Assembly (NCBI GenBank): GCA_026983795.1
Contig: JALSTI010000235.1
Coordinates: 1 to 39,339, forward strand
Reading direction: 5' to 3'
DNA: 39,339 nucleotides
Source: Melioribacteraceae bacterium
GTDB lineage: Bacteria; Bacteroidota; Ignavibacteria; Ignavibacteriales; Melioribacteraceae
The position numbers and the translations under genes are program-made. The notes below the pieces were generated by a model. The model saw only the letters and a list, made by a program, of their open reading frames with translations. It did no database searches and was not told where the DNA came from. Shown piece after piece: positions 13,667 to 27,815 of this stretch (positions are counted from its first letter, which is position 1; each line of letters starts with the position of its first letter).

Positions 13667-13825
13667 ATGTTAGATCGAAAGAAATTTTTTACGCTAATTG
13701 GGAAAAGCGCATTATTTATCGGATTATTAAAAATGCTGCCCGTTAAATTTTTTAGTAATATTTCTAAAAAATCAAATCCCGTAAAAATTAAAATTCATCC
13801 TTCAGCAATAAAAAGAAAGAAATAA
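13667..13825 (+). CDS. Small 52-residue membrane/Tat-like protein between actA and actB
   Basis: This ORF starts at the ATG at 13667, 24 bases after actA, and its stop overlaps the actB ATG as TAATG. That spacing argues for translational coupling. The protein begins MLDRKKFFTLIGKSALFIGL, with a hydrophobic stretch through about residue 29 (LLKMLPVKFF). The tail is short and strongly basic, ending HPSAIKRKK. The DRKKFF start resembles a twin-arginine signal with KK in place of RR. It could be a small single-helix ACIII subunit or an assembly/Tat-targeting helper; small Tat-type proteins are known near molybdopterin-family enzymes such as formate dehydrogenase. I do not recognise a named family. 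Coding status rests on context, codon pattern and overlap. Confidence 0.6.
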   Translation: MLDRKKFFTLIGKSALFIGLLKMLPVKFFSNISKKSNPVKIKIHPSAIKRKK

Positions 13826-16800
13826 TGAGCGAAATAAAAAATAATAAGAAATCTTCTGATACCAAATTCTGGAAAGGGCTTAGAGATTATTATGACGATC
13901 CCGAAATTCTTAAGATTAAAGCAAATGAATTTAACGATGGCGTAACCGATAATTTCGACCCCGACGAGCTTTCCGGAATTTCGAGACGTAAATTTATTGC
14001 GCTTTTAACGGCTTCGGCAGCTTTTACCGCAACTGCATGTACCGATTACAGAGATAAAGGCGAAATCGTTCCTTATTCAAAAAGGCCGGAAGAAATTTTA
14101 CCTGGTATTGCTAATTATTATGCTTCTACATGCAAAGGGTGTGAATTAGAATGCGGAATATTAATTAAAACAAGAGAGGGAAGACCCATTAAAATTGATG
14201 GAAATCCCGAACACCCCGTTTCTAAAGGAAAAATTTGCGCCAAGGGTCAAGCTTCTATCTTAAATTTGTACGATCCCGATAGAATTTCGCATCCGTATAT
14301 TGATAATGTAAAAAGTAGTTGGAAAAAATTGGATACCGAAATTTTAGCTGAGTTAAAGAAAGCTTCGGAAAATAATAAAGAAATTGCAATAGTTTCGTAT
14401 AGAATCAATTCGCCTTCTACTTATAAAGCACTTCAACAATTTAAAAAGAAATATCCTTCTGCAAATTTTTATTTTTATGAATCATTTGGCGAGGAGACTA
14501 AGAGAAAAAGCTGGCAGTTGTGTTATGGCACCGATCAATTACCGAAAATTGATTTGGATAAAGCTAACATCGTGATATCCTTGGATAGTGACTTCTTAAG
14601 CAGGGAAGGTAATTTTATCGAAAACACCCGTCTTTATTCCACCAGAAAAGATATTATGAAAAGTCCGGACTTTAACCGCCTTTATTCAATTGAAGGAGGT
14701 TTGTCGTTAACCGGCATGAATGCAGATATCAGGTTAAGACTTAAACCCGAATTACAAGATGAATTTATCCTTTCTTTATTAAATGAATTATTGATTAAAC
14801 GAAAAGTTGCTTCCATACCTTCCGGTAACGGATTGTATTCTTTAATAAATAAGTATAATCTTGAAAACTTCACCCGGAAACAAGGCTGGGAAGAATCAAA
14901 AATTAATTCTCTGGTTTCTGATTTACTTGAAAACAAAGGGAAGTCGATAATTCTTGCCGGAAACACGCTTTCGCTTAATACGCACGTTTTAGCTAATTTA
15001 TTGAATAACGTGTTGGGAAATGAAAAACTGTATGATTATTCGTCGGCTAATGTATTGGTTACAAAAAATAACGATAAAGAAAGTTGGAAAAATTTTCTCG
15101 GAAATATGAATGACAAAAAAGTAGGAGTTGTTATTCATTTCGATTCGAATCCCGTTTATGAATTGCCTTCGGATTATAATTATGCAAACAGTTTAAAAAA
15201 TGTTGATGCGGTTATTAGTTTATCGGAACTGCCTTCGGAAACAACCGGTTTAAGCAAATATATTGTTCCTATCAATAATACTTTTGAATCTTGGGGCGAT
15301 AGCTTTACCAGATCTAACGTGTACAATCTTCAGCAGCCGGTTATTGCGCCGCTTTTTAATACAAGACAAAAAGAAGCGGTACTTCTTACTTGGACGGACG
15401 AAAAACTGAAATATTCCGAGGATTTATACCACAAATTCTTGATGCAAAGTTTTAAAGATGATATTTATACAAAACAAAATCCTTCGAGCGACTTTAAGTC
15501 TTATTGGTATTCTTCAGTCCATGATGGTTTTGTTGAGCTTCCAACCGAATCGACTTCTTATAAATTTAATATTTCGGCATTAAATAACATCAAAGTTGTT
15601 AGTAAAAAGAGCGGTATGTCTTTGCATATTCAACCGAATTACTTTGTCGGTAACAGGAAGTTTTCTAATAATGGATGGCTGCAGGAAATTCCACATCCGG
15701 TTAGTAAAGTAACTTGGGATAATTTTGCAGCGGTGTCATTTGCCACGGCAAATAAACTGGGACTTAAAAACAATGATTTGATTTCCGTTGAGGTTAACAA
15801 TACAAAAATGGATTTGCCGGTAATGGTTCAACCGGGACTTGCCGATAATCTTTTGGTAGTGGAAGCAGGATACGGAAGAGAGAACTCCGGCACCATTGAA
15901 AGCGGCGTTGGATTTAATGTGAATAAATTTTTAATTTCCGATAATTTGAATTTTAAATATATTTTTGAGAATGTAAAAGTTGATAAAACCGGTAAAACTT
16001 ACAAGCTTGTTTCCACTCAAGAGCATAATTTCTTAAATGAACCCGATTTAAGGGATTTCCATAAAATAAGAAAAATTATTTTTGAAGGAACCATTCAGGA
16101 ATATAAAAAAGACCCTAAATTCTTATTGCCCGAAGAAAAAGTTTTACACGGAATTACAAGAGAGCACGAATACAAAGGCTTGAAATGGGGAATGGCTATT
16201 GATTTGAACAAATGTACCAGCTGCGGTTATTGCGTTGCCGGTTGTAATGTTGAAAATAATATTCCCGTAGTTGGTAAAGAACAAGTGGCGGTTGGAAGGG
16301 AAATGCAATGGATGCGAATCGACAGATATTATTCAGGCTCGCCAGACGATCCTGAAGTAAGCAATCAGCCGATGCTTTGTCAGCAATGCGATAACGCTCC
16401 GTGCGAAAATGTTTGCCCGGTTAACGCTACAAACCATAGTCCCGACGGTCTAAACCAGATGGTATATAACAGATGCGTAGGGACAAGATATTGTTCGAAT
16501 AACTGCCCGTATAAAGTTAGAAGATTTAATTTCTTTAACTTCCGGGACCATTTTGCTGATGCATATTATGAAAACGATTTAACCGCTTTGGTAAATAACC
16601 CTGAAGTTACGGTAAGATCACGCGGTGTGATGGAAAAATGTACTTTTTGCATACAAAGAATTATGGAAGCAAGACAAGAAGCAATTAGTGAAGGAAGAGA
16701 ACTTAAAGGAGATGATGTAAAAACTGCGTGTCAACAAGCATGCCCTGCCGATGCAATAGTTTTTGGAGATATTAACGATCCCGAATCGGAAGTTTCCAAA

Positions 16801-16905
16801 TACAGAAATCACGATATCGGTTATTTGGTACTAAAAGAATTGTATGTTAAACCAAATGTTACTTATATGGCTAAACTTAGAAATAAAAATTCCGGGGAGG
16901 TTTAG
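13825..16905 (+). CDS. actB: Alternative Complex III subunit B, molybdopterin-family plus iron-sulfur domains
   Basis: The 1026-residue protein fuses an N-terminal molybdopterin-oxidoreductase-like domain with a C-terminal ferredoxin-like domain. ISRRKF at residues 52-57 and a hydrophobic segment ending TATAC form an internal Tat signal with a possible lipobox (Cys72). Next comes a C-x2-C-x3-C-x27-C motif starting CKGCELEC, the classical cluster site of the family. The C-terminal part, from about residue 790, has cysteine sets beginning [37 protein letters not shown] and CTFC with CQQACP, which should bind four cubane or trinuclear clusters. In known ACIII this subunit lacks molybdenum and passes electrons from quinol to ActA. 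It overlaps the small ORF upstream and actC by one base downstream. Confidence 0.94.
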
Positions 16906-18272
16906 TGACAACGATTGACTATTCTCAGGAATTACCCGTTGTTGAGGGTAGACCTACTCTTCAAGAAATTAATGAGTTAATAGCTAAACCGTTAGATACA
17001 AAACCAGATAAAAAGTATTATATCGCTTTAGCAATTACTCTTACTATGTTGTTAATTGGCGTAATTGGACTGGGACTAACTTTTTATTACGGCGTTGGAA
17101 TGTGGGGAAATAACAACCCCGTCGGTTGGGGATTTCCCATTGTTAACTTCGTATTTTGGGTCGGTATTGGTCATGCCGGAACTTTAATATCAGCCATACT
17201 TTTTCTGTTTAGACAAAAATGGCGTAATGGTATTGCCCGGTTTGCCGAAGGTATGACAATCTTTGCTGTAATGACAGCCGGACTCTTTCCTTTGATTCAT
17301 GTCGGACGACCCTGGTTGGCAGGTTATTTAATTCCTTATCCCAATCAACATTCTTTATGGGTTGACTTTAATTCGCCGCTCGTTTGGGATGTTTTTGCGG
17401 TTTCTACTTATTTTACGGTTTCTTTTATTTTTTGGTATGTTGGTTTAATACCAGATTTGGCGACATTAAGGGACAGAGCGACTTCCAAAATAAAAAAGAC
17501 AATTTATTCTATATTCAGTCTTGGGTGGAGGCATTCGAACAGGCATTGGCAGCATTATGAAATGGTTTATTTAGTATTAGCCGGCTTTGCTACTCCGTTG
17601 GTGCTTTCGGTTCATACAATTGTAAGTTTCGATTTTGCCGTTTCTATTTTGCCCGGTTGGCATTCAACAATATTTCCGCCTTATTTTGTTGCAGGAGCTG
17701 TATTTTCCGGTTTTGCAATGGTTCAAAATGTTTTAATTTTCATTAGAAAAATTTTCAATTATGAACATATCATTACTTTAGACACGCTGGAGAAGATGAA
17801 TAAAATAATTATTCTTACCGGCTCTATGGTAGGATATGCTTACGCAATGGAATTTTTTACTGCTTGGTACAGCGGTGTTCAACCGGAACAATTTACTTTT
17901 ATTAACAGAGCTTTTGGTCCGTACGCATGGGCATATTGGATAATGGTTTCTTGTAATGTATTATTCCCGCAACTATTTTGGATTAAGAAAATAAGAAGGT
18001 CAATTCCAATTATGTTCGTTATTGCGGTATTGGTAAACGTAGGTATGTGGTTCGAAAGATTTGTTATTACCGTCACTTCATTGTCGCGCGATTTCTTACC
18101 TTCAAGTTGGGCGTATTTCAAACCAACTCTGGTGGACGGAGCAATATTATTAGGTAGTTTCGGATTTTTCTTTACTTGGATTTTATTGTTTACTAAATCA
18201 TTACCCGTAGTATCTATTGCTGAAATTAAATCTGTTGTACCCGGTGCACAACCTTCGCATGAGGAACATTAA
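16905..18272 (+). CDS. actC: Alternative Complex III subunit C, NrfD-like membrane protein
   Basis: The 455-residue polytopic protein has about ten hydrophobic helices, in line with NrfD/PsrC-family ActC. It keeps the family segments [65 protein letters not shown] and [20 protein letters not shown]. In the known structures this subunit carries the quinol-binding site and a proton half-channel near the P side. The start is a GTG one base into the actB stop (TAGTG), a tight coupling. The C terminus ends SHEEH. The next gene starts one base after the stop. Confidence 0.94.
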
Positions 18273-18273
18273 G

Positions 18274-19413
18274 ATGTCGGAGAAAATTTTATATTCGTAT
18301 ACTGCTTTATTTGATACTCCTAATCAAATTATAAAAGCCGCTAAAAAAGTTAAGGAAGAAGGCTATACCAAATATGATGTAAATACTCCATATCCAATTC
18401 ACGGTATGGATGCGGCTATGGAATTAAAACCTTCTTTATTACCTTATGTGGCTTTAGTAGTCGGATTAACCGCAGCTATTAGTATGATTATTTTTCTATG
18501 GTGGCAAAACACAATAGATTATCCGTTAAATATAGGCGGAAAACCGTTTTTTGCTTTACCGGCTTATATCCCGGTTACTTTTGAGGTGACGGTATTATCC
18601 GCTTCTATTGCAACGGTTGTAGCAATGTTATTTTTTGTTTTTAAGTTTCCGAATAATGTTCATCCCTTGCACGATACGGATTATATGAAAAGGGTTTCTG
18701 TTGATAAATATGGAATTAGCATTCAAGCTGAAGATCCTTTGTTTGAAGCTGAGAAAGTTAAAAGTCTTTTTAATTCCTTGGGCGCTTCAAGCATTACCCC
18801 TATATATTATTCCGATGAATTAGTAAATTTTAAACCTAAGATTTTAGAACCCAAATTTATATCTTTTTTGATTATTTTATTTATTGTTGTATCGGGCGCA
18901 ACCTACATTACGTTAAATAAATTATTGTTTTTGCCTCCGTATAGTTGGATGATGGTTCAAGATAAAGTTATAGCGCAAAAAACTTCGGATTTTTTTGGCG
19001 GAGGTAGCGGTATGTTAACTCCTGTTAAAGGAACCGTCGCCCGAGGTTTTTTACCTTATAAATTCGATAAAAAACCTGAATTGGCCGCCAAGGAATTAGT
19101 TAATCCCTTAATGCCGGTGAAAAAAAATATAGAATTGGGCAAAACGAAATTTAATATTTATTGTAGTCCGTGCCATGGATACCATGCCGAAGGAAAGAGC
19201 AGGTTACGAGGGCAGTTCCCAATTCCCCCGAGTCTGCATTCCGATAAAGTAAGAAATTGGTCGGATGGTAGAATTTATCATGTAATAACGGAAGGACAAA
19301 ATGTAATGCCATCTTATGCGCATCAATTAAGCAGGCAAGAAAGATGGGCTATAGTTTTATATATTCGTGCGCTTCAACGGTCACTAAATGCTAAGGAGTC
19401 AGATTTACAATGA
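18274..19413 (+). CDS. actDE: ActD-ActE fusion: DUF3341 membrane domain joined to monohaem cytochrome c
   Basis: The 379-residue protein starts with a full ActD/DUF3341 domain: SYTALFDTPNQIIKAAKKVK, YDVNTPYPIHGMD, then two helices separated by a loop with GGKPFFALPAYIPVTFEVTV. Its soluble end reaches PLFEAEKVKSLFNSLGA. A third hydrophobic segment (FISFLIILFIVVSGATY) follows. A cytochrome c domain comes last, with a haem site CSPCH at about residue 297 and NVMPSYAHQL supplying a methionine ligand at about 345. The latter is ActE-like. The third helix would bring the haem domain out to the periplasm. I saw no stop or frameshift inside, so this is one gene. I used the ATG at 18274 because it lies one base after the actC stop; the longer frame would overlap actC by 56 bases. 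Confidence 0.9.
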   Translation: MSEKILYSYTALFDTPNQIIKAAKKVKEEGYTKYDVNTPYPIHGMDAAMELKPSLLPYVALVVGLTAAISMIIFLWWQNTIDYPLNIGGKPFFALPAYIPVTFEVTVLSASIATVVAMLFFVFKFPNNVHPLHDTDYMKRVSVDKYGISIQAEDPLFEAEKVKSLFNSLGASSITPIYYSDELVNFKPKILEPKFISFLIILFIVVSGATYITLNKLLFLPPYSWMMVQDKVIAQKTSDFFGGGSGMLTPVKGTVARGFLPYKFDKKPELAAKELVNPLMPVKKNIELGKTKFNIYCSPCHGYHAEGKSRLRGQFPIPPSLHSDKVRNWSDGRIYHVITEGQNVMPSYAHQLSRQERWAIVLYIRALQRSLNAKESDLQ

Positions 19414-20591
19414 GCGATGTGATAGAATATACTAAGAAAAAACTACCTGCCAATTGGAATAAGACAGGTATAGTTTTATTCGCTTTGGGACTAATATTGG
19501 TAATACTTTCGTTTATGACAGACGTCAGCCGGAGTAGTTTTAATGCGGTTGTATTCTTAACTTTCCTTACAAGTATCGGGCTTGGATCTTTATTTTGGAT
19601 TGCCACGGAATATTTAAGCGGCGCCGTTTGGTCAACTCCGTTTAGAAGAGTTGCGGAATTTCTTGCGTCGCTATTAATTATTTTACCGTTAGCCGCATTA
19701 CCGTCTTATTTTAATCTTCATGATGTGTTTCATTGGACCCATTTGGAAGTAGTAAAAGGCGACGCATATTTATCGGCTAAACAACCGTATTTAAATGTTC
19801 CTTTTTTTACGATAAGAACAATAGCCTTCTTTTTAATTTGGATTATTTTTTACTTTTATATTACCAGGAATTCGTTAAAACAAGATACTACAAAAGACCA
19901 AAACTTAACTAAAAAGAATTTAAGATGGTCGGCAATTTTTATCCCGATTTTCGCGTTAACAATTACGTTTTTTTCAATTGATTGGTTAATGAGTTTAGAG
20001 CCGCATTGGTTTTCTACAATATTCGGCGTTTACTATTTTGCCGGTACGGCGCTTGCTTCCATGGCGGCAATTACATATTTGGTTGTAAAACTTAATGAAA
20101 AAGGATATTTTGTTGAAGGTTTGGTAAGCGATCATTATTATAGTTTCGGTGCTTTGTTGTTCGGGTTCTTGAACTTTTGGGCTTACATTGCTTTCAGTCA
20201 GTTTTTATTGATATGGTATGCTAATTTACCCGAAGAGACTTTGTGGTTTCTTCAAAAATGGGAAGGTAATTGGCTATATTTCTCAATCTTATTGATTATA
20301 ATCCATTTTGTTGTACCGTATTTTGCTTTGCTTTCACAACCTGCCAAAATGGATCCCAAGCGATTGAAATTTATGTCCCTTTGGATATTGTTCGCGCATT
20401 ATTTTGACTTGTATTGGATTTCTATGCCTACCTACAGCGAATTTGCCTTTATGCCCGGATGGATAGAACTGGGTTTCATTATTTTAACTATCGGTGTTAT
20501 TATATTGGTCTTTAATTGGAAAGCTAATAAAGAAAATTTGGTGCCGATTGGCGATCCGAAATTAAAAAGAGGAATTAAATTTAGACTTTAA
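19410..20591 (+). CDS. actF: Alternative Complex III subunit F, second NrfD-like membrane protein
   Basis: The 393-residue protein is polytopic, with about ten helices, and is the paralogue of ActC expected at this position. Family features include LTSIGLGSLFWIATEYLSGA, VWSTPFRRVAEFLA, the loop HDVFHWTHLEVVKGDAYLSA, LNVPFFTIRT, SIDWLMSLEPHWFSTIFGVY, HYYSFGALLFGF, and a late FAHYFDLYWI. ActF is thought to hold a second proton path and to sit against ActC in the membrane. Its ATG overlaps the actDE stop by four bases (ATGA). It is followed after 12 bases by a separate cytochrome c gene. Confidence 0.93.
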   Translation: MSDVIEYTKKKLPANWNKTGIVLFALGLILVILSFMTDVSRSSFNAVVFLTFLTSIGLGSLFWIATEYLSGAVWSTPFRRVAEFLASLLIILPLAALPSYFNLHDVFHWTHLEVVKGDAYLSAKQPYLNVPFFTIRTIAFFLIWIIFYFYITRNSLKQDTTKDQNLTKKNLRWSAIFIPIFALTITFFSIDWLMSLEPHWFSTIFGVYYFAGTALASMAAITYLVVKLNEKGYFVEGLVSDHYYSFGALLFGFLNFWAYIAFSQFLLIWYANLPEETLWFLQKWEGNWLYFSILLIIIHFVVPYFALLSQPAKMDPKRLKFMSLWILFAHYFDLYWISMPTYSEFAFMPGWIELGFIILTIGVIILVFNWKANKENLVPIGDPKLKRGIKFRL

Positions 20592-20603
20592 CATAATTTA
20601 GCT

Positions 20604-21545
20604 ATGAATAATAAAAAAAAGATAGAAGACGAAATAAACTTTAAGAATTTATTAAAGAACCCGTTAAGACTTTACGGATGGTTTTTCTTGATAGTTTTTG
20701 TTGTAATTCTTATCGGTGGAATTTACTACGTAAAGCATTTGGATGCAATTTATCTTAATTCCACACCTACCGCAATTTTTGCTATTGATTCGGTTAAAGT
20801 GGAAGAAATACCGATGAAAAAAGGCGGAATAAAACCGGCATTAGATTTGAGTTTGGTAAAATCCCCTTTGCCGGAGATGTTAAAAAAAGGAAAGGAATTA
20901 TTTGAAACTACATGTTCCTCTTGTCATGGTAAAGAAGGAAAAGGCGATGGTCCGGCCGGCGCTGCTCTTAACCCTAAACCGCGTAATTTTCATTCGGACG
21001 AAGGCTGGGTAAACGGTAAATCCATATTGGGAATGTTTAAAACCATTTCCGAAGGAATAAAAGGAACCGGAATGAGTTCGTACGATTATATCCCGCCAAA
21101 AGACAGAATTTCTATTATTCACTATATAAGAACTTTCGGAAATTATCCCGGAATTACAGACGATGCAGTTTCTAAATTGGATGAAACTTACCATCTTTCA
21201 GCCGGAACCGTTGAACCTAACACTATTCCGCTTGAATTGGCTATAAAAGATATAATAAAGGAAAATAAACCGTTAATTGAAAAAACAAATAAGATTGCAG
21301 ACGAAATTAAAAAAAGTAGTGACAATAATGCTAAACTGTTTAAAAGTTTGACTTCGAATTTAACCAATTCCATATATGCGATTGAAGAAGGTTCTTTACT
21401 TAAAGACTTTAATGCTTTTAAAAATAAAATATTTGCCGACCCTTTAGATTTAGGATTTAACTCGGCTATCCTTAGGCTTTCTGACAAGCAGCTGAAATCT
21501 TTATTCGATTATTTGAAAAATTTAACAAGTAAAACCGTTTCGTAA
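20604..21545 (+). CDS. Membrane-anchored monohaem cytochrome c with helical C-terminal tail
   Basis: The 313-residue protein has a short basic cytoplasmic start, one transmembrane anchor at about residues 25-43 (GWFFLIVFVVILIGGIYYV), and one class I haem site CSSCH at about 104-108. GKEGKGDGPAGAALNPKPRN follows, and a methionine ligand candidate lies in GTGMSSYD. The cytochrome domain ends by about residue 180. The remaining about 130 residues are predicted helical and charged, with repeated Lys/Glu/Asp (KDIIKENKPLIEKTNKIADE and onward), unlike a normal cytochrome. Placed between ACIII and the oxidase genes, it is a candidate carrier from ActE to the CuA subunit, which has no haem domain of its own. 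It could also be a second ActE-like subunit. Confidence 0.85.
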   Translation: MNNKKKIEDEINFKNLLKNPLRLYGWFFLIVFVVILIGGIYYVKHLDAIYLNSTPTAIFAIDSVKVEEIPMKKGGIKPALDLSLVKSPLPEMLKKGKELFETTCSSCHGKEGKGDGPAGAALNPKPRNFHSDEGWVNGKSILGMFKTISEGIKGTGMSSYDYIPPKDRISIIHYIRTFGNYPGITDDAVSKLDETYHLSAGTVEPNTIPLELAIKDIIKENKPLIEKTNKIADEIKKSSDNNAKLFKSLTSNLTNSIYAIEEGSLLKDFNAFKNKIFADPLDLGFNSAILRLSDKQLKSLFDYLKNLTSKTVS

Positions 21546-21547
21546 AA

Positions 21548-22333
21548 ATGAAAAGCCAAAAGATAATTATATTAACAATAATTTCGATGCTTTTGTTTTG
21601 TACTGTGGTTTCATACGGTAACGAAAATAAAGATTCAAAAATTGAAATAGGGATCGAAGAACATCAAGGTTCGTATATTCCCATGGATGCCGTTTTTGTT
21701 ACTTCCGAGAATGATACGGTTGCTTTAAAAGATATAATAACAAAACCTTTTTTGCTTGATGTAGGTTATTATAATTGCCCCGGAATTTGCCATCCGCTGT
21801 TAAGCGAATTAACCTGGGCGGTAGACAGAATTAAAATGGAGCCCGCTAAAGATTTTCAAGTAGTGTTTTTAAGTTTCGACCCGACTGAAAATCATTTGCT
21901 CGCTAAGAAATGGAAAAAGAGTTATTTGAGCAGTATGAAAAGAAAAATGCCGGAAAATTCATGGTTTTTCTTATCCGGGGATAGTGTGAATATAAAAAAA
22001 GTAACCGATGCAATTGGATTTGAATATAAACCGGACAATAAAAATTTTATTCACGCCGGATCTGTTGAATCAATTGCAGCTGACGGAAAAATATCCCGTT
22101 ATATATACGGCTCTACGTTTAATCCGTTCGATTTACAAATGGCATTAATAGATGCCCAAAAAGATAAAGTAAGACCAACATCGGCAAAATTATTGCAGTT
22201 ATGCTTTAGTTATGATCCGGAAGGGAGACGGTACACATTAAATGTTACTAGAATAGTTGGCGTTTTAATGATGTTAGGTTTAGCCGCGTTTTTTGTATTT
22301 GTAGTTATTAAAAAAAATAAGAAAGGAGTTTAA
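21548..22333 (+). CDS. SCO1/SenC-type copper chaperone with C-terminal membrane anchor
   Basis: The 261-residue protein is a thioredoxin-fold SCO protein. It keeps the copper ligands: CPGIC (Cys77, Cys81) and a histidine in FIHAGS (about His169). It also has PFLLDVGYYN before the CxxxC and VVFLSFDP. The N terminus has a signal peptide or anchor (KIIILTIISMLLFCTVVSYG). A clear C-terminal helix (GVLMMLGLAAFFVFVVIKK) follows, so it is held in the membrane at that end. SCO proteins deliver copper to the CuA centre of subunit II, present three genes later. The start lies two bases after the cytochrome c stop; a strong AAAGGAG inside its last codons serves ctaD. Confidence 0.92.
   Translation: MKSQKIIILTIISMLLFCTVVSYGNENKDSKIEIGIEEHQGSYIPMDAVFVTSENDTVALKDIITKPFLLDVGYYNCPGICHPLLSELTWAVDRIKMEPAKDFQVVFLSFDPTENHLLAKKWKKSYLSSMKRKMPENSWFFLSGDSVNIKKVTDAIGFEYKPDNKNFIHAGSVESIAADGKISRYIYGSTFNPFDLQMALIDAQKDKVRPTSAKLLQLCFSYDPEGRRYTLNVTRIVGVLMMLGLAAFFVFVVIKKNKKGV
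22322..22328 (+). promoter_or_regulatory. Strong ribosome binding site for ctaD
   Basis: AAAGGAG ends nine bases before the ctaD ATG at 22338 and lies within the last codons of the SCO gene. A strong site here suggests high expression of the oxidase catalytic subunit. Confidence 0.65.
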
Positions 22334-22337
22334 ATAG

Positions 22338-23984
22338 ATGGCTAACGGAACCATTGCATTAGCCGAAAAAAGTTTTTATCAAGAAGGAACCACTAAAAGA
22401 AAAACCGGTTTGTTTTCGTGGATTTTCAGTACGGATCATAAAAGGATAGGAATCCTTTACTTAACGTCGGTTACATTCTTTTTTGTGTGCGGCGTTATTC
22501 TTGGCGAATTGATGAGATTGGAACTTATAGCTCCCGGTCCAACCATAGTAAATGCCGAAACTTATAATAGATTTTTTACGCTGCATGGCGTAATAATGAT
22601 ATTCTTATTTATTATTCCCGGAATTCCCGCGGTGTTCGGAAATTTTTTCCTTCCTATACAAATTGGCGCTAAAGATGTTGCATTTCCCAGATTGAATTTG
22701 TTATCTTGGTGGTTGTACGTAATTGGAGCTGTTTTTGCTTTAACTTCCCTTTATTTACCGGGCGGTCCTGCCGATACTGGTTGGACGTTTTACATCCCAT
22801 ATAGTATTAGAACGGGAACTAACGTTTCCTATACGTTAATGGCAGCATTTATACTGGGTTTTTCTTCCATTCTTACGGGACTAAATTTTATTACAACCGT
22901 TCACAGGATGAGAGCCCCGGGAATGTCATTTTTTAAAATGCCGTTAAATATTTGGGCTTTGTATGCTACCGGCTGGGTTCAGGTTGTTGCAACGCCTGTT
23001 ATTGGTATTACAATGTTGCTTATAATTATAGAAAGAACGTTTGGAGTGGGAATTTTTGATCCTGCTCTCGGCGGCGATCCGATACTCTATCAACACATGT
23101 TCTGGATTTATTCACACCCTGCAGTCTATATCATGATTTTACCTGCCATGGGCGTGGTATCTGAAATTATAGCTACTTTTTCGAGAAGAACAATATTTGG
23201 ATATAAAGCCGTTGCGTATTCTTCTCTTGCAATTGCATTCTTCGGTTATCTTGTTTGGGCGCATCATATGTTTGTTAGCGGTTTAAGCGAAACGGCGGCT
23301 ATTGTATTTTCATTTTTAACTTTCATAGTTGCAATACCGAGCGCAATAAAAGTTTTTAATTGGGTTGCTACAATGTATAAAGGTTCTATAGATCCGCGTA
23401 CCCCGTTTTTATGGGTTATGGCATTTATTTTCCTTTTTTCAATTGGAGGATTAACAGGATTGGTATTAGGATCTTTAGCCACAGACGTGCATTTACACGA
23501 TACTTATTTTGTAGTAGGTCACTTTCATTTTGTAATGTTCGGCGGTACGGGAACAATATTTTTTGCTGCACTTCATTATTGGTTCCCGAAAATGTTTGGT
23601 AAAATGTATAACGAAAAAATTGCGAAAATTGGGGTAGGTTTGTTTTTTATAGCATTTTTAACGCTTTATTTCCCGATGTTCCTTTTGGGATATAACGGAA
23701 TGCCGAGAAGATATTTTGATTATTTACCCCAATTTCATACGCTTCATTTTATCTCTACCATGGGCGCGTGGTTAATGTTTATTGCTCTTAGCATTGTGAT
23801 TGGAAATTTACTTTATGCTCTTAAAAAAGGGAAAAAAGCTCCGGCAAACCCTTGGGGTGGTGTTACTCTGGAATGGCATATCCCATCTCCGCCTCCTTTG
23901 GAAAATTTTGAAGAAATTCCAAATGTTACACACGAGCCTTACGATTTTAGTCAATTAGAAGGTATGGAGTATGGAACTGAATAA
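22338..23984 (+). CDS. ctaD: Cytochrome c oxidase subunit I (A2-type haem-copper oxidase)
   Basis: The 548-residue protein has all metal ligands of haem-copper oxidases: the low-spin haem His in FFTLHGVIM (about residue 83), [17 protein letters not shown] (CuB His and the cross-linked Tyr, about 255-270), [11 protein letters not shown] (CuB His pair, about 309), and [18 protein letters not shown] (haem ligands, about 387-400). In the helix VI motif the usual glutamate of HPEVY is alanine and the residues before it are YS. That YSHPxVY pattern defines the A2 subtype known from Rhodothermus and Thermus caa3 oxidases. It reduces oxygen to water and pumps protons. A strong AAAGGAG site precedes the ATG. 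Its stop overlaps ctaE by 14 bases. Confidence 0.97.
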
Positions 23985-24603
23985 TCCTGTATCAACAAAT
24001 AATAATCAACATGTGCATCGCGATGATGTTGGCGCCAGAATAGGAATGTGGTTGTTTCTATTCACTGAACTTTTACTTTTCGGCGGTATGTTTCTTGTCT
24101 ATGCGGTTTACAGAATGAAATATCCCGATCAATTTCATCTTTCGGCAATGGAAATGAATACAACTATTGGTACTCTTAATACCATTATACTTTTAACCAG
24201 TAGTTTAACTATGGTTTTATCAATTGCCGCCATTCAAAAGAAAAATAAATTTCTTTCCGTCGTATTTGTCTCTACCACATTAATTTTGGGATTTATGTTT
24301 TTAATTGATAAATACTTCGAATGGTCGCATGAAATTCATAATGGTAATTACCCCGGATCTGAAGTTTTATTGAATAAGAAAAACGGCGAAATTTTATTTT
24401 TTGGTTTATATTATGCAATGACGGGATTGCACGGTTTGCACGTAATAATCGGGATGATAGTTCTATCCTTTATGCTTGTGTTTTTATTAAGGGATAAAAT
24501 TACATTTGATAATTATGTTAAGTTGGAAAATGCAGGTTTATACTGGCATTTGGTCGATATAATTTGGATATTTTTATTCCCACTATTTTATTTGATTCAA
24601 TGA
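23971..24603 (+). CDS. ctaE: Cytochrome c oxidase subunit III
   Basis: The 210-residue protein has about five to six helices and the subunit III signatures [60 protein letters not shown] and a C-terminal [18 protein letters not shown]. The last two carry the HGLHV and YWHLVDIIW motifs typical of the family. Its ATG lies inside the end of ctaD (14-base overlap), so synthesis of subunits I and III is coupled. Subunit III stabilises the catalytic subunit and its oxygen and proton paths. The length is that of bacterial ctaE with a short N terminus. Confidence 0.95.
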
Positions 24604-24610
24604 GGTTATA

Positions 24611-24910
24611 ATGAGCAATTACAATAATGAAGAAAAAAAGAATCACGTTATCGATTACGGAACGTATATTTTTGTCTGGTTAGGGTTATTGGCTTTAACT
24701 TCGTTAACCGTAACGGTTGCGGGAATACATTTGGGGAATTATACTTTAATAGTTGGTTTGTTAATTGCATTAACCAAAGCTAGTTTAGTGATTGCTATCT
24801 TTATGCACATTAAAGTTGAAGACCCTATTTTTAAAGTATTTATTGGGATTGTTCTATTAACCCTTTTAGCAATATTTATTTTAACATTTATAGATTATTC
24901 TTTTAGGTGA
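24611..24910 (+). CDS. ctaF: Cytochrome c oxidase subunit IV (prokaryotic type)
   Basis: The 99-residue protein has three hydrophobic helices and the prokaryotic COX4 pattern: YIFVWLGLLALTSLTVTVAG, then LIVGLLIALTKASLVIAIFM followed by HIK, and a last helix ending ILTFIDYS. The KASLVIAIFMHIK stretch is the family signature. It is a small accessory subunit of aa3/caa3 oxidases in the membrane. It lies between subunit III (7 bases) and subunit II (12 bases), and has a GAGG site before its start. Confidence 0.93.
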   Translation: MSNYNNEEKKNHVIDYGTYIFVWLGLLALTSLTVTVAGIHLGNYTLIVGLLIALTKASLVIAIFMHIKVEDPIFKVFIGIVLLTLLAIFILTFIDYSFR

Positions 24911-24922
24911 GGTTTATAAAAG

Positions 24923-25561
24923 ATGTTATATAACGAAGTTACATCGCATGCCAATCAAGTTGATAATGTAATGATATACATTACGGTAATATCCGTGATA
25001 TTTTTGTTGGGTATTACCTTTACAATGCTTTATTTTGTTTTCAAATATAATCGTAAAAAACACAAACAAGCATCCGATATTCATGGTAATGCATTGCTTG
25101 AAATTACTTGGATTGTTATTCCGACTATTTTAGTGTTAACAATGTTTTATTTCGGGTTTATGGGTTATAAAGGAATTAAAAAAATACCGGATAATGCCTT
25201 TAAAATTACCGGTATAGCAAAAATGTGGCAATGGAATTTTGAATATCCAAACGGGAAAAAATCCGATACGCTGTATGTTCCGAGCGGTAAACCCGTAGAA
25301 ATTCAATTAAAATCCCTGGATGTAAATCATTCTCTGTATATTCCGGCTTATCGCGTTAAACAAGACGTTGTGATGGGAAAAACTAATTATATTGTGATCA
25401 ATCCCGAAAAGACAGGGTCTTATGATATAGCGTGTGCGGAATATTGCGGGCTTAACCACTCTATGATGTACACAAAATTAGTTGTAATGGATTCAACCGA
25501 TTTTAATGAGTGGTATGCCTCATTAGATACACAAAAGGAAACGGATACGGGTGAAAAATAA
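24923..25561 (+). CDS. ctaC: Cytochrome c oxidase subunit II with CuA, no fused haem domain
   Basis: The 212-residue protein has two N-terminal helices (about 15-42 and 60-82) and a cupredoxin domain with a complete CuA site: the histidine in DVNHSLYIP and the motif CAEYCGLNHSMM (two Cys, His, Met, plus the Glu between the cysteines). The aromatic patch WQWNFEYPNG for electron entry is present. It ends soon after the CuA domain. caa3 enzymes normally carry a cytochrome c domain fused here, and this one does not. The order I-III-IV-II, with subunit II last, is also unlike the common II-I-III-IV. The gene overlaps ctaB by 11 bases. Confidence 0.95.
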   Translation: MLYNEVTSHANQVDNVMIYITVISVIFLLGITFTMLYFVFKYNRKKHKQASDIHGNALLEITWIVIPTILVLTMFYFGFMGYKGIKKIPDNAFKITGIAKMWQWNFEYPNGKKSDTLYVPSGKPVEIQLKSLDVNHSLYIPAYRVKQDVVMGKTNYIVINPEKTGSYDIACAEYCGLNHSMMYTKLVVMDSTDFNEWYASLDTQKETDTGEK

Positions 25562-26435
25562 AATTACTAAATATTTTAATTTATTTGCCGAATTGGGAAA
25601 AGTAAAAATTACTTTTTTTGTTGCCATCTCTTCGTCTGTAGGTTATATTTTAGCCTCGGGCAGTTTAACATGGCACATGATATTACCGGCGTTGGGAATA
25701 TTTATACTAGCTTCCTCATCTTCGGCGCTTAATCATTTTCAAGAAAGGGACCTGGATGCTTTAATGGATAGAACGAAGAACAGACCAATTCCGTCCGGAA
25801 GGGTTTCACCCGATTCGGTATTGTTGTTTTCGTTACTTCTTTTCATAATTGGGTCCTTGGTTTTATTACTTAGCTCAAATACATTAGCCCTAAGTTTAGG
25901 ATGGTTGGCGTTTGTTTGGTATAACATTATTTATACTCCTTTGAAAAGGAAATACGCTCTTGCGGTAGTTCCGGGTTCCGTTATCGGCGCTTTGCCTCCT
26001 ATTATCGGTTGGGTTGCGGGCGGAGGTGATTTATTTAATCCCCAAATTATTGCGCTTGCATTATTTTTCTTTATTTGGCAAGTACCGCATTTTTGGCTTT
26101 TGTTACTTTTGTATGGAAAAGATTATGATAAAGCCGGATTTCCGACTTTAACAAAAATTTTTAATACAAAACAAATTGCAAGGTTAACATTTATGTGGGT
26201 CGTGGCTCTGTCTACAAGCTGTTTGTTAATTCCGTTTTTCGGCGTTTCCAAAAATATATTTACGTCGGTCGGATTAATTTTGTTGGGCATTTGGTTAGTT
26301 TTAACTACGGCTAAAATTCTTTCGGAATATGTTGAGAGAAAAAATTACAGAAATGCTTTTGTAAAAATTAATATTTACGTTTTAACAGTAGTAATTCTAC
26401 TATCATTAGATAAATTAATATTAATTCAATTTTAG
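25551..26435 (+). CDS. ctaB: Protohaem IX farnesyltransferase (haem O synthase)
   Basis: The 294-residue polytopic protein has the UbiA-family motifs of haem O synthase: NHFQERDLDALMDRTKNRPI (aspartate-rich, prenyl diphosphate/Mg site), PSGRVSP, YTPLKRKYALAVVPGSVIGA, LPPIIGWVAGGG, and WQVPHFWLLLLLYGKDYDKA. It transfers a farnesyl group from farnesyl diphosphate to haem B, giving haem O, the precursor of haem A. Haem A synthase (ctaA) is not in this window. The start is a GTG inside the end of ctaC. It is followed after about 12 bases by the eight-helix cytochrome c gene. Confidence 0.95.
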   Translation: MKNKITKYFNLFAELGKVKITFFVAISSSVGYILASGSLTWHMILPALGIFILASSSSALNHFQERDLDALMDRTKNRPIPSGRVSPDSVLLFSLLLFIIGSLVLLLSSNTLALSLGWLAFVWYNIIYTPLKRKYALAVVPGSVIGALPPIIGWVAGGGDLFNPQIIALALFFFIWQVPHFWLLLLLYGKDYDKAGFPTLTKIFNTKQIARLTFMWVVALSTSCLLIPFFGVSKNIFTSVGLILLGIWLVLTTAKILSEYVERKNYRNAFVKINIYVLTVVILLSLDKLILIQF

Positions 26436-26447
26436 GAAGAAGATTTG

Positions 26448-27815
26448 ATGGATTTTTTAGATAATATAGTTTTACCGCAATCCGCTCATCACATGGAATT
26501 GTTGAGGGGTTTATTATCAATTACCTTAATAATATTGATTCCTTATTTAAGTGTATTAACCGGCAGTTTAATATTTTCCATTCTTTATCTAAAAAAGAAA
26601 AAAACATCAAACAATAATTACAATTACCGTTTTGCCAAAGAATTAATCGATTTATCTACATTTAATAAAAGCGTTGCTTTCGGGTTCGGGGTAATCCCTT
26701 TTATAAGCGCAATTTTTGCTTATGCGCAGTTGCTCGATAAAACTTCGTCATACCTGCCGTATTATGTTTCGGTTGCATTTGTTTTCTTCTTGATTGCTTT
26801 GCTTTTTATTTATACGTATAAGTATGCTTTTCATTTAAAAGATATTTTTAATTTTGTCTCGACCGAAAAGATTCAAAGCGAAGCGGATGAATCGACAGAA
26901 GAAGAATTTGAAAAATATTCATCTGCTGCAAATAGAATTTTTAAGAAGTTTGCGGGTTGGGGTTTGTTGTTCTTATTAATTGCAGATTATAAATTAATAA
27001 GTTCAATTCAATTATCGCTCAATCCGGGTTTGTGGGAACCTAATCCCGGTTTTTGGTCGGTACTCTTTTCCATACCTGCGCTTGTTAACTTTTTCAATTT
27101 TTTAATTGTATCTTTAGCGCTTACTTCAATAATTGTTTTATATGTTTATTTCCGGCCAAATTCAATTTATAAACGTAATAATGATGAGTATCTTAGTTTT
27201 GTTAAACAATTTGCACTTAAATCGTCGTTATTATTTTCCCTTTTTGTTCCTGTTGTAATTGTTTTAAATATTTTAGTCCTTCCGACTGTTGCACTTACTA
27301 ATGCCGTCTTTTTAATATCATTAATTGCAATAATTTTGGTTTTAATAACCGGAAATTATCTTTATATAATGATGAAAGAAGGACATTTGAAATATGTGCC
27401 GGCTGCGACGTATGTCTTTATTTTAGTAATTGCGTTAATCATTTTTAAGAACGAATATGCGTTTGAATCCGCAACTAAAAAACATTTTGTAGTACTCGCT
27501 ACTAATTACGAGGAATACTCGCAAAAATTAAAAGCGGAATTAGGAGGTAAAGAGAAAACGGTAAGCGGCGAAGAAATCTACAAAACAAGATGTATGGCGT
27601 GTCACCGGTTTGAAACTAAGTTGGTTGGTCCGCCTCATTTAAAAGTTCTGCCTAAATATGAAGGTAAAGAAGATAAATTGATTAAATTTATTTTAAACCC
27701 GGTAAAAGTTGATCCCGCTTATCCTTCCATGCCTAATCAAGGATTGAAACCCAATGAAGCAAAAGCGGTTGCCGACTATATGTTAAAAGTGTATGAGGAA
27801 AAAAAGAAAAAGTAA
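26448..27815 (+). CDS. Eight-helix membrane protein with C-terminal class I cytochrome c domain
   Basis: The 455-residue protein has about eight hydrophobic helices (roughly residues 18-48, 71-97, 102-127, 169-190, 202-236, 255-280, 282-304, 312-330) and a soluble C-terminal domain. That domain has one haem site, CMACH at about 382-386, and a methionine ligand in YPSMPNQGL at about 428, followed by the AVADYML helix typical of class I cytochrome c. A charged cytoplasmic loop near 140-160 is rich in Glu. Histidines near the start (SAHHMELLRG) could be haem ligands, but I do not recognise the membrane domain as any named family. It is the last gene of the island. I chose ATG 26448 over the TTG one codon upstream; AGGA ends ten bases before it. 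A redox role with the oxidase is likely. Confidence 0.7.
   Translation: MDFLDNIVLPQSAHHMELLRGLLSITLIILIPYLSVLTGSLIFSILYLKKKKTSNNNYNYRFAKELIDLSTFNKSVAFGFGVIPFISAIFAYAQLLDKTSSYLPYYVSVAFVFFLIALLFIYTYKYAFHLKDIFNFVSTEKIQSEADESTEEEFEKYSSAANRIFKKFAGWGLLFLLIADYKLISSIQLSLNPGLWEPNPGFWSVLFSIPALVNFFNFLIVSLALTSIIVLYVYFRPNSIYKRNNDEYLSFVKQFALKSSLLFSLFVPVVIVLNILVLPTVALTNAVFLISLIAIILVLITGNYLYIMMKEGHLKYVPAATYVFILVIALIIFKNEYAFESATKKHFVVLATNYEEYSQKLKAELGGKEKTVSGEEIYKTRCMACHRFETKLVGPPHLKVLPKYEGKEDKLIKFILNPVKVDPAYPSMPNQGLKPNEAKAVADYMLKVYEEKKKK

Follow-up and report, generated by a model that had tools for sequence, protein, structure and literature searches.

A cytochrome c on a probably haem-less, putatively bd-like membrane anchor, encoded with ACIII and a haem-copper oxidase in Ignavibacteria

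The last gene of an operon for ACIII and a haem-copper oxidase encodes a membrane protein that ends in a cytochrome c. We refer to this gene, the ORF at 26448-27815, as gene X, and to the whole 39,339-nt stretch of DNA analysed (JALSTI010000235.1) as the window. We regard it as moderately probable that X is a tethered cytochrome c feeding CuA, mounted on an ACIII-linked and probably haem-less bd-like anchor. The ORF starts with ATG and runs without an internal stop; a TTG three bases 5', at 26445, is a possible alternative start, and the relatives begin at ATG. Hydropathy analysis gave seven runs over threshold, and eight helices are predicted because one of these runs (residues 254-311, 58 residues) suffices for two. 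Loop charges place both the N-terminus and the C-terminal domain outside. The Pfam family Cytochrom_C matches residues 373-447 (E 9e-8), and 71 of 74 distinct aligned X sequences have both the CMACH site and Met428, the whole domain being gone from the other 3. The family alignment has 75 rows, with the window in twice, and its 60% coverage filter removed the X of loci L058, L069 and L077; the domain is also absent from the X of L190. These features, together with matches to the X protein in 53 of the 58 relatives searched, bear out the sequence-only reading of a real eight-helix protein ending in a His/Met class I cytochrome c. AlphaFold models of the whole protein and of the membrane domain, from two sequences each, had pLDDT values of 47 and 45, and a promoter/terminator scan stayed at chance level.

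X is the 13th gene of a same-strand series, actA-actB-actC-actDE-actF-cytc-SCO-cox1-cox3-cox4-cox2-ctaB-X, in which the gaps are at most 12 bp from actB onward (182 bp between actA and actB). It begins 12 bp after ctaB and ends 80 bp before prmC. The COX2 of the window shows the CuA motif CAEYCGLNHSMM and is free of CxxCH, confirming that X closes an ACIII-oxidase operon in which the CuA subunit lacks a haem domain. In X itself, a CuA domain was not found, and only cytochrome c families matched by Pfam. Neither CydB nor a second CydA-like subunit was recognised among the operon genes, in a Pfam scan that excluded actA to actDE. The features are listed in Table 1.

Table 1 Positions of the operon genes and of the features of gene X within the window
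Feature	Position	Strand	Basis
actA, five CxxCH in 189 aa	13073..13642	+	act name by resemblance to the published M. roseus cluster
actB	13825..16905	+	act name by resemblance to the M. roseus cluster
actC	16905..18272	+	act name by resemblance to the M. roseus cluster
actDE fusion, one CxxCH	18274..19413	+	act name by resemblance to the M. roseus cluster
actF	19410..20591	+	act name by resemblance to the M. roseus cluster
Monohaem cytochrome c, one CxxCH	20604..21545	+	Pfam
SCO1/SenC	21548..22333	+	Pfam
cox1, A-type haem-copper oxidase	22338..23984	+	Pfam, NCBIfam
cox3	23971..24603	+	Pfam
cox4	24611..24910	+	Pfam, NCBIfam
cox2, CuA motif, without cytochrome c domain	24923..25561	+	Pfam
ctaB, haem O synthase	25551..26435	+	Pfam, NCBIfam
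Gene X, 455-aa membrane protein with C-terminal cytochrome c	26448..27815	+	M. roseus MROS_0033 orthologue by gene order
Eight-helix membrane domain of X, residues 1-345, putative divergent CydA-superfamily scaffold	26448..27482	+	profile comparison, hydropathy
His15, His in 55/74, not an invariant ligand	26490..26492	+	alignment
Leu30, aligned with the b595-type His of X-like and partner	26535..26537	+	alignment
Class I cytochrome c domain, about residues 366-455	27543..27812	+	Pfam, profile searches
CMACH haem attachment site, residues 382-386, His386 axial ligand	27591..27605	+	sequence, alignment
Met428, distal axial ligand, in MPNQGL	27729..27731	+	alignment

X occurs widely across the class to which the window belongs, and most of the loci examined have it following cox2 or ctaB. 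An 18-member X alignment matched 150 of 245 genomes of the class, and 23 of these, with a best E weaker than 1e-12, were removed by hand to leave 127 X genomes. Co-occurrence with the ACIII genes, by which the sequence-only reading was to be judged, was found: ActC (E 1e-60) is present in 120 of the 127 (Fisher p 1.6e-6, uncorrected for kinship), and gene order is conserved, the fetched X loci mostly reading actA to ctaB and then X, or cox2-X-ctaB. For the idea of an electron entry module or a new subunit of the ACIII-oxidase assembly, the support that this provides is comparative, not physical. The cox1 gene (E 1e-20) is present in 122 of the 127 and absent from G016, G020, G045, G083 and G235. 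Among 395 genomes of the phylum, G315 was the only out-of-class genome with a membrane-domain match among the matches listed, and G062, within the class, carries a second, short copy of X.

X and a COX2-borne cytochrome c are mostly complementary in occurrence. Among loci of X genomes, 8 of 54 have a COX2 with a CxxCH of its own, as against 16 of 20 hand-picked X-less loci of the window's class (p 3e-7, uncorrected). The 54 comprise 50 fetched X loci with a COX2 judged complete, the window, and L063, L126 and L127, where X is elsewhere in the genome; the count leaves out L070 (cut) and L192, whose COX2 also has no CxxCH. The other four X-less loci (L186-L189) have a separate one-CxxCH ORF upstream of cox1, beside cox2, the place of cox2 being inferred in L187 and L188, and eight loci have a cytochrome c on both COX2 and X. 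Subunit II of caa3 oxidases resembles X in having a dedicated cytochrome c that delivers to CuA, but most X genomes examined put that cytochrome c on a separate eight-helix protein. In the ACIII-oxidase supercomplex of F. johnsoniae, it is ActA that bears an additional cytochrome c domain, which apparently stands in for the one on subunit IIc (PMC5928083); the ActA of the window has its five CxxCH in 189 aa.

The membrane domain is, on well supported but indirect grounds, a distant member of the CydA (bd-like) superfamily, linked to it through two further families. One, X-like, includes the distant X copies of G315 and G062, and the other, the partner, is a membrane protein with a C-terminal cytochrome c that adjoins them. 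Searches with the X membrane domain gave nothing convincing, whether as a single protein (Pfam, NCBIfam, PDB), as an 18-row alignment (Pfam, PDB) or as a consensus (Pfam, NCBIfam), and the membrane parts of the distant copies and the partner had no Pfam match of weight. A search for the partner gave matches in 14 of 296 genomes. The profile comparison used 12 X-like and 12 partner sequences (L168 and L169 left out), 75 rows for X (window twice) and 32 for CydA, the cytochrome c domains having been trimmed from all sets but CydA. In hhalign, X matched X-like with a probability of 99.2-99.5 (E 7e-20 to 2e-22) and the partner with 95.5-97.0, while X-like matched the partner with 96.5-96.9. The partner in turn matched CydA with a probability of 97.7 (E 2e-12, 312 columns), and X-like matched CydA with 78.2. 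The link is indirect because the direct comparison of X with CydA was insignificant (3.5), so that it runs through two families of 12 rows each. Control comparisons reached at most 2.3 for seven families, 0.9 for cytochrome b and CcoNO, 1.1 for reversed profiles and 1.2 for column shuffles (30 for each of four comparisons). Against PDB, the partner profile (11 rows) found the bd subunit I 5doq (E 6.6e-11) with further bd structures below it, and 5doq also headed the 8 matches of a profile built from 11 X-like rows and 6 of X (E 0.017). The earlier statement that the membrane domain matches no nameable family thus stands for Pfam and NCBIfam models and falls for the superfamily, since the profile chain leads to CydA. 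As other relatives of the domain, NrfD (ActC/ActF), COX1, COX3, cytochrome b and CtaB were ruled out by their hhalign scores, and an origin from haem A synthase (CtaA) was provisionally set aside.

The two halves of the X membrane domain align with each other (residues 27-131 with about 215-315; probability 88, E 3e-6). In this internal repeat, P84 pairs with P268, and Y306 pairs with Y122, two residues from Y124. Conservation among the 74 sequences is high at P84 (72), P268 (71), Y124 (69) and Y306 (68). The outside N-terminus predicted for X agrees with that of CydA, which we also take to be outside. In L159-L163, X-like, a Rieske-type gene, a cytochrome-b-type gene and the partner form one series (Rieske and cytochrome b named by eye), which in L166 and L167 comes after cox3-cox4-cox2-ctaB. 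The partner in the X-like/partner series of L158 is an 896-aa ORF with eight CxxCH.

In G007 (L038), G020 (L042), G045 (L037) and G028 (L190), X stops short of the cytochrome c domain. The gene after it starts no more than about 130 bp further on, with no cytochrome c in between, and in all four ACIII is present and cox1 and cox2 are missing from the locus. By comparison, the domain is missing from none of the 50 intact X genes of cox2 loci (p 2e-4, uncorrected; L077, whose X is cut by the contig end, is left out of the 50). Parsimony on the membrane-domain tree, whose supports near the leaves range from 0.38 to 0.99, gives three losses of the cytochrome c and six losses of cox1/cox2 from the locus; among the counts and tests presented here, only this one allows for kinship. 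Oxidase loss does not force loss of the domain, since 4 of the 8 X loci without cox1 and cox2 retain it (G002, G016, G029 and G235). Two of these may be draft errors: in G002 the start of SCO runs into the end of cox1 (by eye), and the G235 locus is on a short, 8132-base contig, where X goes out of frame towards its end. At L021 8880-9030 (Bacterium BMS3Abin04), the start of SCO seems joined to the end of cox1, by either a natural deletion or an assembly join. G029, with cox1/cox2 gone and the cytochrome c kept, is sister to G020 and G028, with both gone (support 0.97), as if in this clade the oxidase had been lost first and the cytochrome c later.

Where searched, the genomes with X loci devoid of cox1 and cox2 carry another oxidase gene: cbb3 ccoN scored over the cut-off in 7 of the 7 searched (of eight), as the sole match of a ccoN model that elsewhere mostly also detects A-type cox1. 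In G045, X is followed by a copper-ATPase-like gene and then ccoNO (by eye and from a weak cox1 match). Divergent COX3-like and COX4-like genes remain beside ACIII and X at L032 4461-5377, L037 4944-5862, L190 11678-12572 and L193 7831-8691; at L042 4644-5252 a COX3-like gene alone was detected beside ACIII and X, and L038 has neither. Because the anchor persists after oxidase and cytochrome c have gone, it seems to serve a further purpose linked to ACIII.

In M. roseus, the cluster Mros0045-0033 ends in Mros0033, which was published as a soluble class I c551/c552 (PMC3534657). Reliable identification of MROS_0033 in this organism was restricted to cells grown aerobically, as was that of CoxI, CoxII, ActC and ActDE (PMC5492636). 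We take genome G011, of the window's family, to be M. roseus because it has the identical 13-gene order and, elsewhere, the Nrf-Nos series of the M. roseus paper. Its X (446 aa, 41% identity, one CxxCH) is predicted not to be soluble, since it has the membrane domain. X resembles the class I c551/c552 proteins in its C-terminal 80 to 90 residues and differs from them in about 345 more residues and eight helices. These data bear on the view that X is only a membrane-anchored diffusible cytochrome c shuttle, merely held to the membrane by its helices. We consider this unlikely, although the cytochrome c has an ordinary class I fold and the M. roseus protein was presented in print as a soluble carrier between ACIII and haem-copper oxidases: one helix would be enough for an anchor, whereas X has eight with four residues conserved in 68-72 of 74 sequences, the membrane domain persists in the four loci without the cytochrome, and X is not soluble by sequence.

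As a CydA relative beside ACIII genes, X invites comparison with the bd-like OR-N proteins, families reportedly defined by Murali et al. in 2021. Nearly all ACIII-bearing Nitrospirales have a bd-like CydAA' OR-N5 directly downstream, read as an oxygen reductase (PMC12342949), and in N. moscoviensis genes for complex III are located close to bd-like ones (PMC6606698). A bd-like protein whose role is unclear is described from Nitrospina (PMC3578206), and in Manganitrophaceae bd-like proteins occur together with components of complex III or ACIII-like ones (PMC9040806). The Nitrospirales OR-N/CydAA' proteins are, like X, CydA relatives encoded beside ACIII or complex III genes (PMC12342949, PMC6606698); compared with their published descriptions, X differs in having no b595-type His, in ending in a cytochrome c and in following a haem-copper oxidase. 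A description of the Ignavibacteria X as bd-like was not found in the literature, where most subscription papers lay outside the search.

The anchor of X is likely haem-less, as judged from its residues. The haem b595 ligand of CydA, which we take to be His19 in E. coli, aligns with His in 9 of 11 partner rows and 11 of 11 X-like rows. The same column in X holds Phe in 48, Leu in 22, Val in 3 and Tyr in 1, and His in 0 of the 74 sequences. The membrane domain of X contains no invariant His column at all, and the other haem ligands of CydA seem lost when the alignment is read by eye. Cytochrome bd is further characterised by its haem b558 ligands, the GRQPW motif and the Q-loop of CydA; by hydropathy and loop charge, a long periplasmic loop like the Q-loop is absent from X. 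The suggestion of the sequence-only reading that two adjacent histidines could bind a further haem is not supported, H14 being His in 13 and H15 in 55 of the 74 sequences, and its suggestion of a quinol-linked partner gained no positive support. An active bd-like unit, with a membrane domain that binds quinol or haem b and reduces either the attached cytochrome c or oxygen, would suit the CydA ancestry via bd-like families, the b595-position His of the partner and X-like rows, and the oxygen reductase reading of the bd-like CydA proteins beside ACIII in Nitrospirales (PMC12342949). The loss of that His throughout X, the lack of any invariant His in its membrane domain and the missing Q-loop-like segment make such a unit very doubtful.

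Some X copies lie away from ACIII, in G048, G170, G090 and the second copy of G035. In G048, X ends a nos operon, after cytochrome c, NosZ, NosL, NosD, NosF and NosY (by eye; NosZ confirmed by TIGR04246), and the ACIII-oxidase operon has no X. X neighbours nar and molybdenum-cofactor genes in G170 and G090, where no copy follows ctaB, and the second X of G035 (L041 9341-13507) is near NrfA-, NrfH- and NapH-like and Rrf2-type genes (all names by eye). In G090, a nucleotidyltransferase-like ORF and a second small ORF lie between actDE and actF (L127 8127-8866, by eye). The relocated copies fall inside the operon family in the tree, indicating that copies of X left the operon for a nos operon and for nar islands. 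NosZ is a CuA enzyme, and 11 of 20 cytochrome-only matches among the relatives lie at most 1 kb from NosZ. G020 and G028 have NosZ over the cut-off yet an X without cytochrome c, so NosZ there does not need the X cytochrome c; NosZ over the cut-off was not found in the window's genome. That X is an oxidase assembly or copper/haem delivery factor, with the cytochrome c as a redox helper, is hardly probable, for although X adjoins ctaB downstream of SCO, it is retained in loci without cox1, cox2, SCO and ctaB (G007, G016, G020, G028, G029 and G045) and has been relocated beside nos and nar genes.

In the reading that we favour, a tethered cytochrome c on a bd-like anchor, a CydA-superfamily protein that has probably lost its own haems would sit beside ACIII. 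Its periplasmic His/Met cytochrome c would accept electrons from the ACIII cytochromes (ActA, ActDE or the cytochrome encoded at 20604) and pass them to the CuA of COX2, doing the work of the cytochrome c fused to caa3 subunit II or of the extra domain of F. johnsoniae ActA. We infer the absence of every haem from the anchor, the physical association, the donors, the acceptor and the direction of electron flow. The two further monohaem cytochromes of the operon could reduce CuA instead of X.

More tentatively, and with clearly less confidence, we suggest that X is a permanent extra subunit of ACIII in the Ignavibacteria line (a placement based on G011), in which a de-haemed bd core serves as a docking scaffold and the cytochrome c is mounted for CuA acceptors and lost when a cbb3 oxidase, which has cytochromes of its own, takes over as acceptor. 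The tie between loss of the cytochrome c and loss of the oxidase makes the idea testable by a single domain deletion. If true, X would correct the annotation of a protein found in the M. roseus proteome, and it might be a candidate donor of N2O reductase in at least one genome (G048). It would also represent the reuse of an oxidase core protein as a scaffold, and would provide a third site for the same wire in ACIII-oxidase assemblies, after subunit II and ActA.
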